Shown here: positions 48,138 through 55,844 of the stretch, piece after piece
How the letters are laid out: each line of letters opens with the position of its first letter
Numbering within the stretch: position 1 is the first letter of the stretch
Assembly (NCBI RefSeq): GCF_009177095.1
Contig: NZ_AP021861.1
Location: 6,802,501 to 6,866,500 of the forward strand
Length of the DNA stretch: 64,000 nt
Direction of reading: 5' to 3'
Source of the DNA: Lacipirellula parvula
Lineage (GTDB): Bacteria > Planctomycetota > Planctomycetia > Pirellulales > Lacipirellulaceae
Notes under the pieces: generated by a model
The model's input: only the letters and a program-made list of their open reading frames with translations
What the model was told of the DNA's origin: nothing
The model's database searches: none
Translations under genes and position numbers: made by a program

Positions 48138-48353
48138 ATGGAAACCATTCAAGGCATCTACGAAAACGGCGTTATCCGACCGCTTGAACCGCTCGCTCTA
48201 CCCGAGTCGACGCCGGTCAGCATCGTTGTGCCATCGCCGGATGAGAACGGTGAGCTTGGCTCAAACTCGGCAGAACTCTACGAAATACTCAGTCATTCTT
48301 ACGACACCGGCGATACAGATCTCGCGGCTCGTATTGATGAGCTGCACCCGTGA
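48138..48353 (+). CDS. AF2212-like (DUF104) antitoxin
   Basis: 71 residues. METIQGIYENGVIRPLEPLAL with a following beta hairpin (PVSIVVP) is the typical opening of DUF104/AF2212-like antitoxins, which bind and block PIN toxins and usually bind their own promoter. The stop codon overlaps the toxin start (GTGA), ensuring coupled translation. Confidence 0.85.
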   Translation: METIQGIYENGVIRPLEPLALPESTPVSIVVPSPDENGELGSNSAELYEILSHSYDTGDTDLAARIDELHP

Positions 48354-48751
48354 AGCCCATCTTTCTCGACTCTGTGGGGCTCGTGGCGCTCTGGCTCCAG
48401 GCAGACCAGTGGCACCAAGCTGCACGTGGCGTTTTCGGTCAGATGCTGGTGTCTCGTCGTCGTGTCGTGACGACTAGCTTGGTGCTTTGCGAGTGTGGCA
48501 ATGCAGTCGCTCGCAAACCGGCCCGACAAGACGTTATTCGACTTCGCAGTGATTTGTTAGCGAACAAAGGCTTAATTATTCCCACGCAAGATGATTGGGA
48601 TAAGGGCTGGCAGCAGTACGATCAAGGTCGTCCCGGCGATCCCGGCATCGTCGACTGCATTTCGTTCGCCATCATGCGCCGCCTCGGTCTGACCGAGGTC
48701 TTCACGAACGACCAACACTTCGCCGCGGCGGGATTCACGCCGCTCTTCTAG
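48350..48751 (+). CDS. PIN-domain toxin (VapC-like ribonuclease)
   Basis: 133 residues beginning with GTG that overlaps the antitoxin stop. PIN residues are in place: FLDSVGLVALW (first Asp), VTTSLVLCECGNAVAR (Glu), GIVDCISFAIMRRLG (Asp) and VFTNDQHFAAAGFTPLF (closing Asp). Such toxins are Mg-dependent RNases that cut tRNA or rRNA. With the upstream DUF104 antitoxin this is a type II module, in the chromosome core beside gyrB rather than in an obvious island. Confidence 0.88.
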   Translation: MKPIFLDSVGLVALWLQADQWHQAARGVFGQMLVSRRRVVTTSLVLCECGNAVARKPARQDVIRLRSDLLANKGLIIPTQDDWDKGWQQYDQGRPGDPGIVDCISFAIMRRLGLTEVFTNDQHFAAAGFTPLF

Positions 48752-49662: not shown

Positions 49663-51312
49663 CTAGGGTCGTCCAGTCCGCCCCGCCAGCGTAGCCACCA
49701 CCGCCGCTAGCTCGTTCGCATCCACCGGCTTCGCCAAATGCGCCTGGTACCCCGCCAGCAGCGCCTTCGTCCGGTCCTCGCTCCGCGCGAACGCCGTCAA
49801 CGCCACTGCCGGCGTACGGCCCCCTTGCTCGTCGCTCAGGCTGCGAACCTTTCGCATGAACTGATAGCCGTCGGTCCCCGGCATGCCGACGTCGCTCACG
49901 ATCACGTCAGGTTTCACACGTGCGACGAGCGCTAATGCCTCGTCCGCGGATCCCGCCGTGTACACGTCGACGCCATGCTGGCCCAGCATCCGCTCGACCA
50001 AAGCGCGGGCATCCGCCTCGTCGTCGACAATGACGACCTTCAGGTCAGAGATTGGCAGCCGCGGGATGCTCAATAGCCCGTCGCCAGCGGCGGCGGGATG
50101 AACGCGATCGCCGTCCTCCTCCGCAACGTCAGGCACGGCAATCTGCACCGGCAAGCAAACTAAAAACGTGCTCCCCTGCCCCGCCCCAGCACTTCGCGCG
50201 ACCACCGAGCCTCCATGCATCTCAACGAAATGTTTCACAAGCGACAAACCGAGCCCCAGCCCGCCGTGTCGCCGCTGCGTGCTCGTGTCCCCCTGCCGAA
50301 ATCGATCGAACACGAACGGCAGCAGCTCCGCCGGCATCCCCTGCCCCGTGTCGGCGACCCGTACCTCGACGTGCGAGTTCACCCGCTCGAGCGACACTTG
50401 CACCTTTCCATGCTTGGGCGTGAACTTGATCGCGTTCGACAGCAAGTTCCAAAACACCTGCTCCAGCCGGCTCGGATCGCCGAGCACCTGCCCGGCCCGC
50501 GGATCAAGCACCACCTGCAAGTCGATCTCTCGTGCCGCCGCCGCGGGAGTGACGGCGCTCACCGCCGCGCGAATCGAATCGCACAGATCGATCGACTGCA
50601 CGTCGAGCCGCATCTTGCCGGTGATGACGCGACTCATGTCGAGCAAATCTTCGATGATTTGCACCTGAGCGCGGCCATTCCGTTCGATCACCGTCGCCGC
50701 GTTGGTCACTTCGTCCGGACTGCGAGGATTCATCAGCAGCAACTGAGCGTATCCCATCATCGCGTTGAGCGGCGTCCGCAACTCATGCGAGACGAGCGAT
50801 AAAAACTCGTCCTTCATGCGGTTCGCCTTCTCTGCTTCGCTCCGCGCGTGCCGTTCGCTTTCCAGCAGCCGCTCGCGCTCTTCCTCGGCTAGCTTCCGCT
50901 CGGCAATCTCGTGAGCCAGTTGCTCGTTCAACTTCGCCATCCCTGGAAAGTGGAGCACGCCAGGCGTGATCTGGATGAGTGCGAACACCGTTCCCCACGA
51001 GACGACCGCCGTCGCAAATTTCACCAACCCCGCCAACCGATAGACCGGCTGCCAAAAGATGATCGCATCGATGAGGTGCGTCGTCCCGCAAGCGAAAATA
51101 AAGGCCACGAACAACCACAAGATCCGCGGAAACGGCACGTCCTTTCGCCGCAAAATGAAAAATGCCAGCACGCACGGAATCGCGGTGTAAGCGCCCCAGA
51201 TCGCGATGTCGGAGAGAATGTGAAGCCAACCGAGCTCGTCGCTCCAGACGCCGCACTTCCACCGCGGCGGAAAGCCGGTGGTATCAAACGCCCCGGTCAG
51301 AATCTCGAACAT
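49663..51312 (-). CDS. Hybrid histidine kinase with ethylene-receptor-like membrane sensor
   Basis: 549 residues. Three membrane helices (about 30-115) match the ETR1 ethylene-binding domain: LSDIAIWGAYTAIPCVLAFF (Asp35, Tyr42, Pro46) and FACGTTHLIDAIIFWQPVYR (Cys75, His79). In ETR1 the corresponding essential residues are Asp25, Tyr32, Pro36, Cys65 and His69, and the spacing is identical. After a coiled linker come HisKA (His176 in LVSHELRTPLNAM), HATPase with ADTGQGMPAELLPFVFDRF and HGGLGLGLSLV, and a receiver with VKPDVIVSDVGMPGTDG. It may sense ethylene via Cu(I) or a related small ligand. No output regulator gene is adjacent. Confidence 0.85.
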   Translation of the reverse strand: MFEILTGAFDTTGFPPRWKCGVWSDELGWLHILSDIAIWGAYTAIPCVLAFFILRRKDVPFPRILWLFVAFIFACGTTHLIDAIIFWQPVYRLAGLVKFATAVVSWGTVFALIQITPGVLHFPGMAKLNEQLAHEIAERKLAEEERERLLESERHARSEAEKANRMKDEFLSLVSHELRTPLNAMMGYAQLLLMNPRSPDEVTNAATVIERNGRAQVQIIEDLLDMSRVITGKMRLDVQSIDLCDSIRAAVSAVTPAAAAREIDLQVVLDPRAGQVLGDPSRLEQVFWNLLSNAIKFTPKHGKVQVSLERVNSHVEVRVADTGQGMPAELLPFVFDRFRQGDTSTQRRHGGLGLGLSLVKHFVEMHGGSVVARSAGAGQGSTFLVCLPVQIAVPDVAEEDGDRVHPAAAGDGLLSIPRLPISDLKVVIVDDEADARALVERMLGQHGVDVYTAGSADEALALVARVKPDVIVSDVGMPGTDGYQFMRKVRSLSDEQGGRTPAVALTAFARSEDRTKALLAGYQAHLAKPVDANELAAVVATLAGRTGRP

Positions 51313-54033: not shown

Positions 54034-54254
54034 AAGTTGCGAAGCCTTCGTAAGGATTGCGCGAAGCTTAGTAAGCCGCTGCGCTTAACGGCGAATTGCC
54101 GGGGAATTCCTCGGCAATTCGCCGCGCAGGCCGCTGCTTGAAAAGCGCTAACGTCGCGACTGGCGTTTACACTAGAGAGAGCGTCACGGCCCGCATTGTC
54201 GGCGACGCCCTCGGTGGCGAAGGTCGTCGCCTCTCACTCCAGGCGGTTCTTGCG

Positions 54255-55844
54255 ATGCATCGTTCGCGGCAACTCATTTTGCTAACGCTCTTGGCTGTTT
54301 GTTGTTGCCAACAACGCGGCGCCGCGCAGCCATACGTTCCCGGCATCGACGTCTCGCTCTTTCAGGATGCGATTGACTGGAATGCCGTCCGCACGGCCGG
54401 CGTCGAGTTCGCCGTCGTCCGCGCGAGCCGCGGCGAGACCTACAACGACCCGCTGTTCCTCGCCAATATGCGTGAGGCGACGAAGGCGGGCGTGTTGGTC
54501 GGAACGTATCACTTCTGCAACCTCGACACGAACTACGGTTCGCTGTCGAACGCCGATGCGATCGCCGACGCCACGGCCGAAGCCAATCATTACCTCAGCG
54601 TCATCAAACCCTACTACGACGCCGGTCAGATGCTGCCCCCGGTGGCCGACGTCGAAGGCTTCCCAGACTTTGCCTCGACGGCTCAGGCGAAGAACTACAC
54701 TTCGGTTTGGACAAAACAGTTCTCCGACACGATCTACAACTCGCTCGGCGTGAAGCCGATGGTTTACACGAGTCTCTCGAAGGCGAACAGCTTCTTCACC
54801 ACCGCGGTGTCGAACCAGAACGACCTCTGGCTCGCGTGGTGGAAGTCGACCGGTACGGCCAACCCGCCCACGGCCGCCGACACGCCGACATGGGGCGCCT
54901 GGGACTTTTGGCAGTGGGCCGACGACTGGACGGTCAACGGCATCGAAGGAGCCGTCGACGGCGACTTGTTCAACGGCAACCGCGCTCAATTGGAAGCGAA
55001 GCTCAGCGGCCATGGCCAGCTTGGCGGTCTGCCCGGCGGGCGGATGCTGATTACCGACTTCGACGGCGGCGATCAGGAAGGTTACTTCGGGCAATCGCCG
55101 ACTTACTCAGGTTCGAACACCGGCATCGCCTCGGCGACCGCGGAGCGCGTCACGAACCAAGCGCACGAAGGGACCGGTTCGCAACGACTTACGGTCACCC
55201 CGAGCAGCGCCACGTGGTCGATGCGCTTCCTGCCCGGCCTCGGCGCCTCGCCCTCAACGCCCGATGCGAATCTCAAGCTTGAGACGACAGGTTCGATCGG
55301 CTTCTGGCTGAAGACGGCTAGCACCGGGATGTCGGTCCAACTTGCAATCGACGATTCCGATGGCACGGAGCGCAGCATTTCAAAGTCTGTCGCGTCCGAC
55401 AATCAGTGGCATCTCTACGAATGGCAGTTCGACGACGCAGCCCAGTGGAACACGTGGCTGTCGGGCTCAAACGGCGCGATCAACGCTGCGACGACGACGA
55501 TCGACTCAATCCTGTTCTCGGGCAACGCTGCGTCAACGTTCTATATGGATACGGTGGCCCATAATCCCAATGGGAGTTTGGCGCCGATTGCGGGCGACTT
55601 CAACCAGGACTGGCTCGTCGACGGTCGCGACCTCGACGTGTGGAAGACGGCGTTCGGCGCCACCGCAGCGGGCGATGCGAACAACGACGGCGTCACCAAT
55701 GGCGCCGACTTCCTCGTTTGGCAAAGCCATCAAACGGTCGTGAACGCCTCTGCCGCCGTCGCCGCCGTGCCCGAACCTGCCGCGGTGACGCTCGTCGGCG
55801 TCGCTCTCCTCTGCGGGTGGCGTCGCCGAGGCCATGCGGGGTAA
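54255..55844 (+). CDS. Secreted GH25 lysozyme with dockerin-like repeats and PEP-CTERM tail
   Basis: 529 residues from MHRSRQLILLTLLAVCCC, a signal peptide. The GH25 domain (about 28-235) has GIDVSLFQDAIDW and the catalytic PVADVEGFPDF (Asp132, Glu134), with WLAWW and WDFWQW typical of muramidases. A beta-sandwich, carbohydrate-binding-like region (about 255-430) follows, then dockerin-type-I-like loops (GDFNQDWLVDGRDLDVWK, GDANNDGVTNGADFLVWQ) and a PEP-CTERM signal (VPEPAAVTLVGVALLCG, WRRRG). It should cleave peptidoglycan, either its own or that of prey or competitors. The next gene starts 11 bases after the stop. Confidence 0.88.
   Translation: MHRSRQLILLTLLAVCCCQQRGAAQPYVPGIDVSLFQDAIDWNAVRTAGVEFAVVRASRGETYNDPLFLANMREATKAGVLVGTYHFCNLDTNYGSLSNADAIADATAEANHYLSVIKPYYDAGQMLPPVADVEGFPDFASTAQAKNYTSVWTKQFSDTIYNSLGVKPMVYTSLSKANSFFTTAVSNQNDLWLAWWKSTGTANPPTAADTPTWGAWDFWQWADDWTVNGIEGAVDGDLFNGNRAQLEAKLSGHGQLGGLPGGRMLITDFDGGDQEGYFGQSPTYSGSNTGIASATAERVTNQAHEGTGSQRLTVTPSSATWSMRFLPGLGASPSTPDANLKLETTGSIGFWLKTASTGMSVQLAIDDSDGTERSISKSVASDNQWHLYEWQFDDAAQWNTWLSGSNGAINAATTTIDSILFSGNAASTFYMDTVAHNPNGSLAPIAGDFNQDWLVDGRDLDVWKTAFGATAAGDANNDGVTNGADFLVWQSHQTVVNASAAVAAVPEPAAVTLVGVALLCGWRRRGHAG

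Follow-up and report, generated by a model that had tools for sequence, protein, structure and literature searches.

The window, a 64,000-nt stretch of the Lacipirellula parvula genome with a G+C content of 62.4%, contains on its minus strand an ORF of 549 amino acids with an ATG start (Table 1). A Pfam scan of the product reported four domains at E up to 0.001. An N-terminal ETR1_N membrane sensor is joined to a two-component kinase made of HisKA (E=2e-16), HATPase_c (E=7.5e-30) and receiver (E=6.6e-23) domains. The signature residues of the kinase are intact (SHELRTP with His176, NLLSNAIKF at 289-297, Asp321, DTGQG and GGLGLGL), as are those of the receiver (VDDE, SDVGMP with Asp474, and Lys528). 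The same scan detected neither a GAF domain, which sets the protein apart from plant-type ethylene receptors, nor a PAS domain. The description given in the initial annotation, a hybrid kinase with a receiver and without GAF, is therefore borne out and extends to PAS.

Table 1. Coordinates of the receptor gene, its parts, two neighbouring genes and the split-receptor loci (window positions unless a locus is named).
Feature	Position	Strand	Basis
Hybrid histidine kinase ORF, ETR1_N - coiled linker - HisKA - HATPase_c - receiver	49663..51312	-	ORF list, Pfam
ETR1_N (PF25487) membrane sensor domain, residues 27-121	50950..51234	-	Pfam, E=4.4e-35, 120.3 bits, cut-off 27
Membrane helix 1, residues 25-55, with Asp35, Tyr42, Ile45, Pro46	51148..51240	-	AlphaFold2, hydropathy
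Membrane helix 2, residues 62-84, with Ile72, Cys75, His79	51061..51129	-	AlphaFold2, hydropathy
Membrane helix 3, residues 91-120, with Lys98	50953..51042	-	AlphaFold2, hydropathy
Cys75 codon, equivalent of ETR1 Cys65	51088..51090	-	Sequence, alignment with AzoEtr1 and AtETR1
His79 codon, counterpart of ETR1 His69	51076..51078	-	Sequence, alignment with AzoEtr1 and AtETR1
Charged coiled linker, helix 3 to kinase, residues 122-165	50818..50949	-	AlphaFold2 model, comparison of relatives
HisKA dimerisation and phosphoacceptor domain, residues 166-229, His176 in SHELRTP	50626..50817	-	Pfam, motif
HATPase_c catalytic domain, residues 278-390	50143..50481	-	Pfam, motifs
Receiver domain, residues 426-539, phospho-Asp474 by position in SDVGMP	49696..50037	-	Pfam, motif
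PIN-domain protein of VapC size	48350-48751	+	PF01850, E=2.6e-8
Glycosyl hydrolase family 25 protein with PEP-CTERM end	54096-55844	+	
Split-receptor loci	L051:5977-8784; L071:5980-9439; L078:5905-8186; L083:5618-8291; L087:5776-8363		

Of six neighbouring ORFs scanned with Pfam, two matched no family and the others are gyrB and genes for a PIN-domain protein, a DEAD-box helicase and a GH25 protein. No ethylene hint, receiver domain or copper domain was found among these six. A copper-translocating P-type ATPase is encoded in the window genome above the family cut-off. However, 13 of the 14 control genomes have one too, and hence it lends the copper site only weak and no special support.

The membrane domain matches the ETR1_N profile (PF25487) far above the curated cut-off (Table 1). 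This is the outcome of an HMM search against ETR1-type domains that the initial annotation had proposed, together with a search for any other sensor family that would refute the assignment. The latter was run on the N-terminal 171 residues at E up to 10. It returned three other Pfam matches with E of 0.013 or worse, all under their own cut-offs. ETR1_N alone exceeded its cut-off in this region, so that a different membrane-sensor family was rejected for the N-terminus and the assignment was not refuted. None of the 14 control genomes matched the PF25487 profile. Hydropathy peaks of the protein are centred on residues 39-47, 66-79 and 101-113. An AlphaFold2 model (monomer, residues 1-150, alignment of 80 sequences) has a mean pLDDT of 95.7 and places helices at residues 25-55, 62-84 and 91-120; a further, charged helix comes after them at 125-149. 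The prediction of three membrane helices in the initial annotation is thus supported by both approaches. A profile search of the PDB yielded no ETR1-type membrane domain, its one match being a synthetic protein (E 0.068), and a Foldseek search with the model matched no solved structure (best E 0.53). Among the best 60 of 285 matches in a whole-protein PDB search there was one named ethylene receptor, 4pl9, which covers the ATPase part of the kinase.

We take the seven ethylene-binding positions of AtETR1 to be D25, Y32, I35, P36, I62, C65 and H69. Residues D35, Y42, I45, P46, I72, C75 and H79 of the window protein presumably align with these positions in that order, and Lys98 presumably with AtETR1 Lys91. 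Asp35, Tyr42, Pro46, Cys75 and His79, singled out in the initial annotation, are present and fall on the ETR1 positions that it had named, in an ungapped alignment. Ile45 and Ile72, which it did not list, complete the set of seven. Residues 27-121 align without gaps to AzoEtr1 with 42 of 95 positions identical. AzoEtr1 is represented here by the Azospirillum brasilense Sp7 locus L111, taken as such from the agreement of strain, length (525 aa) and domains. Identity over the same residues is 44/95 to a Pseudanabaena plasmid protein and 35/95, again ungapped, to AtETR1. Seven AtETR1 residues, C65, D25 and H69 among them, are reported to be needed for ethylene binding. Cys65 is described as needed to hold copper, His69 as coordinating it, and K91 as linked to output (PMC11819568).

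We compared these positions across relatives. In alignment A1, all 30 rows share D35, Y42, I45, P46, C75, H79 and K98, and 28 of 30 share I72. A1 holds 30 of the 55 match places in the phylum, window included, one per genome. These are mostly the higher-scoring profile matches, with weaker ones such as G045 (E 4e-11) lying outside, and the constraint at the site is therefore perhaps somewhat overstated. Identity at I72, C75 and G76 in A2 and A3 proves nothing, because the pattern used to scan named genomes (best 80 of 545 matches) itself requires these three residues. A3 leaves out L061 and four plasmid loci. The Lys98 position is occupied in A2 by Arg in 20 of 85 proteins and by Phe or Leu in 4 of 85, though ETR1 Lys91 is linked to output. 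The Pro46 equivalent is missing in 3 of 10 loci from a Verrucomicrobiota search (L125, L127 and L128), all of which pass the profile, and a profile match alone is therefore no guarantee of the full residue set. These three loci keep the Cys and the His and may be regarded as natural site variants. Loci L130-L132 from the same search have a longer loop.

The window genome contains a single PF25487 match. The domain is nevertheless not an oddity of one planctomycete, since we found it in 42 of 392 genomes of the phylum, inside and outside the class of the window (centre genome counted). Among phylum genomes with a completeness of 90% or more and no more than 5% contamination, 32 of 217 carry it. 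In a Verrucomicrobiota sample around a Luteolibacter genome the domain occurs in 14 of 194 genomes (centre genome counted). Eighteen plasmid records contain it as well, including records from Azospirillum, Rhizobium, Novosphingobium and cyanobacteria. Relatives among the best 80 of 545 pattern-scan matches are labelled as coming from Planctomycetota, Verrucomicrobiota, Bacteroidota, Myxococcota, Acidobacteria and Hydrogenedentota, and from a Vampirovibrionales and a cyanobacterial bin, bin labels to be read with the reservation that bins can hold foreign contigs.

The output modules joined to the domain vary. In 85 proteins scanned, each over at most about 610 residues so that the module counts are lower bounds, ETR1_N was present in all 85, HATPase_c in at least 54, HisKA in at least 53, the PAS family PF00989 in at least 43 and a receiver in at least 8. 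Three GAF families matched at least 5, at least 5 and at least 4 of these proteins. The absence of GAF noted in the initial annotation is thus real, but it is not a special trait of the window protein, the GAF-less state being the common one among the 85 bacterial proteins over the part scanned (4 or 5 matching each GAF family). A fused receiver is less common, yet it is also present in the near relatives L031, L032 and L040. Both L032 and the Blastopirellula marina protein (L040) have the layout of the window protein, ETR1_N-HisKA-HATPase_c-receiver. The nearest named relative among the best 80 of 545 is that of Lacipirellula limnantheis I41 (L031), with 85% identity in the domain and 78% over the aligned protein. 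The domain identity suggests constraint. A counterpart of the helicase gene of the window, recognized by its C-terminal sequence, divergently adjoins the L. limnantheis receptor gene, and the two receptors are probable orthologs. They are alike in the receiver end; in contrast, residues 174-260 of the L. limnantheis protein form an additional PAS domain, inserted between helix 3 and the kinase in a stretch that is missing from the window protein. Probable orthologs of one genus thus appear to differ by a whole PAS domain (window 50818-50949 versus L031:5983-8007). Since L. limnantheis has the PAS domain whereas the window protein, L032 and L040 do not, the coupling module between sensor and kinase varies among near relatives. 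In the window protein a short charged helix alone joins the membrane domain to the kinase.

Separation of sensor and kinase was also observed. In 5 of 84 loci ETR1_N forms a small protein of its own and a separate kinase-like ORF comes next (Table 1). Each sensor protein terminates in a coiled tail that contains an ELKxExxxL motif. The paired genes range from a 50-base overlap to 18 bases apart, depending on the start codons chosen. Pfam confirmed kinase domains in the second gene of L087 only; for L051, L071, L078 and L083 the kinase-like end was judged by eye. Four further loci (L099, L107, L108 and L109), from three Phycisphaerae-named bins and one Planctomycetota bin, encode ETR1_N proteins of about 300 residues with no kinase in the ORF. 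The C-terminal parts of the two that were scanned, L099 and L109, matched no Pfam family. At two Bacteroidota loci (L072:5974-6930 and L081:5860-6952) a stand-alone ETR1_N protein is followed by a small ORF of 122 and 150 residues, respectively. The small ORFs have C-terminal ends that look similar by eye, and the pair may be a two-gene cassette without a kinase.

A tree of 113 domains (115 input rows less two exact duplicates) pairs the window protein with that of Lacipirellula limnantheis (support 100/84). One group contains AtETR1, AzoEtr1, a Rhizobium protein, two cyanobacterial plasmid proteins and L002, L003 and L005, which are three proteins of one planctomycete family; it is joined by L008. 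The other 104 of 113 rows, window included, lie across a branch from the AzoEtr1 group whose support (91/83) is below the starred level and which rests on few columns. The tree is midpoint-rooted with an unsettled bootstrap, and the long AtETR1 and Rhizobium rows are placed unsurely. The N-terminal motif in A1 is RWxC in 25 of 30 rows and HGxC in 3, with no letters in the other 2. The cysteine and the tryptophan that follows it are kept in both kinds. With modest support, the tree would place the window protein in an RWxC branch set apart from AzoEtr1. The proven binders compared, AzoEtr1 and AtETR1, both lack RWxC; SynEtr1 and the fungal Rhizophagus receptor were left out of this comparison.

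The observed gene and domains, the complete residue set, the homology and the confident three-helix model together point to a Cu(I)-dependent receptor-type hybrid histidine kinase for ethylene or a small alkene, and we consider this identification probable. The wording chosen in the initial annotation, "ethylene or a similar ligand", fits it. From the sequence and the model we infer copper and ethylene binding, a direction of signalling, a downstream partner and a cellular response. Cys75 and His79 would hold Cu(I) within a three-helix site of ETR1 type, with Asp35 and Lys98 forming a polar pair that orients the histidine and connects the site to output. Binding of ethylene or another small alkene to the copper inside the membrane would shift helix 3, a movement that the short coiled linker would transmit directly to the HisKA dimer. 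In consequence, both the autophosphorylation of His176 and the transfer of phosphate to Asp474, in the fused receiver, would change. From Asp474 the signal would probably reach an unlinked phosphotransfer protein and a response regulator. An unlinked protein seems likely because the six neighbouring ORFs have no receiver domain.

Alternatively, the same fold and Cu(I) site might be kept for a different natural signal, such as Cu(I) itself, another alkene, CO or a sulfur compound, in which case ethylene may bind in the test tube without being the biological cue. The six scanned neighbours, with no ethylene or copper gene among them, and the N-terminus of the branch, RWxC versus PHGxC in AzoEtr1, are compatible with such a signal. 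So are the aquatic habitats from which the family's strains are described (PMC7717034) and in which an ethylene source is not obvious. Aquatic cyanobacteria, however, are reported to respond to low ethylene with SynEtr1 as the receptor (PMC6682694). Moreover, the window protein keeps the residues reported to be needed for ethylene binding beyond the two metal ligands. We therefore regard a different cue as unlikely, although it is the most serious of the alternatives considered.

Less plausible still is a degenerate family member, whose membrane domain would be a mere anchor or dimeriser while the signal enters through the kinase linker or the receiver. Loss of the Pro46 equivalent in 3 of 10 loci of the Verrucomicrobiota search would agree with such decay, as would the PAS domain that the nearest relative has and the window protein does not. 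Against this stand the complete residue set of the window protein and the domain identity to L. limnantheis, which suggests constraint. Hydrophobic helices can also give spurious residue matches, and with a best Foldseek E of 0.53 no solved structure supports the fold, so that an unrelated membrane sensor could in principle mimic the site. We rejected a chance match on the strength of the PF25487 profile (E=4.4e-35), which was the only N-terminal family above cut-off and had no match in the control genomes, and of the ungapped identity to AzoEtr1 (42/95); it can practically be dismissed. Overall, a receptor for ethylene or a small alkene is the reading that we prefer.

Bacterial proteins of the ethylene-receptor kind are already known, and the domain has its own Pfam family. 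Taken alone, the window protein is one more member and brings no new mechanism. The wider interest is that a site-bearing domain occurs in about one in ten sampled genomes of the planctomycete phylum (residues read in 30 places). Planctomycetes would thus lend themselves to studying the meaning of ethylene for other microbes and to separating the indispensable parts of the ETR1 domain from the rest. The part most worth experimental attention is the RWxC branch. It is conceivable, though we hold it somewhat less probable than not, that this is a large branch spanning Planctomycetota, Bacteroidota, Verrucomicrobiota and others, in which the copper site is kept while the outputs are very different and include two-gene forms with a free-standing ethylene domain next to a kinase encoded separately. 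Should members of this branch bind ethylene, sensing of the gas-hormone type would be a common bacterial trait also beyond the photosynthetic and plant-associated lineages that have been studied. The literature searched contained no binding or signalling experiment on this branch. A search of the open literature for planctomycetes with ethylene receptors or histidine kinases, by title and the start of the abstract, gave nothing relevant; the main reviews were not covered and printed reports are possible.

Plant ethylene receptors carry a GAF domain between the membrane domain and the kinase, and the window protein does not. To our knowledge, the plant CTR1/EIN2 pathway is not to be expected in bacteria. 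AtETR1, as described in PMC13012798, shares with the window protein the presence of both kinase and receiver. Direct work on ethylene binding is reported for receptors of plants and cyanobacteria, of a mycorrhizal fungus and, more recently, of a single plant-associated alphaproteobacterium. Putative receptors are described from several bacterial phyla (PMC11819568), with many proteobacteria and cyanobacteria among the carriers (PMC7700396). By their description, SynEtr1 of Synechocystis (slr1212) and GeiEtr1 and GeiEtr2 of Geitlerinema resemble the window protein in having an N-terminal ethylene-binding domain, one N-terminal cysteine and a kinase. Unlike it, they carry GAF, PAS or cyanobacteriochrome modules that separate the sensor from the kinase, and SynEtr1 is also light-sensing (PMC6682694). 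The closest comparison is with AzoEtr1 of Azospirillum brasilense, which is reported as a proven ethylene receptor: AzoEtr1[1-130] expressed in yeast binds ethylene, cells with the gene disrupted show little or no ethylene binding, and mutating the ETR1 equivalents of its C75 and D35 abolishes binding (PMC11819568). ETR1_N lies at residues 27-122 in AzoEtr1 and 27-121 in the window protein, and HisKA and HATPase_c follow the membrane domain in both. Cys20, Asp35, Tyr42, Ile45, Pro46, Ile72, Cys75, His79 and Lys98 have the same residue numbers in the two proteins. They differ at the N-terminus (PHGxC in AzoEtr1, RWxC in the window protein), in the PAS domain, which only AzoEtr1 has, and in the receiver, which is fused in the window protein, whereas the response regulator next to AzoEtr1 is described as encoded by a gene of its own immediately downstream (PMC11819568).
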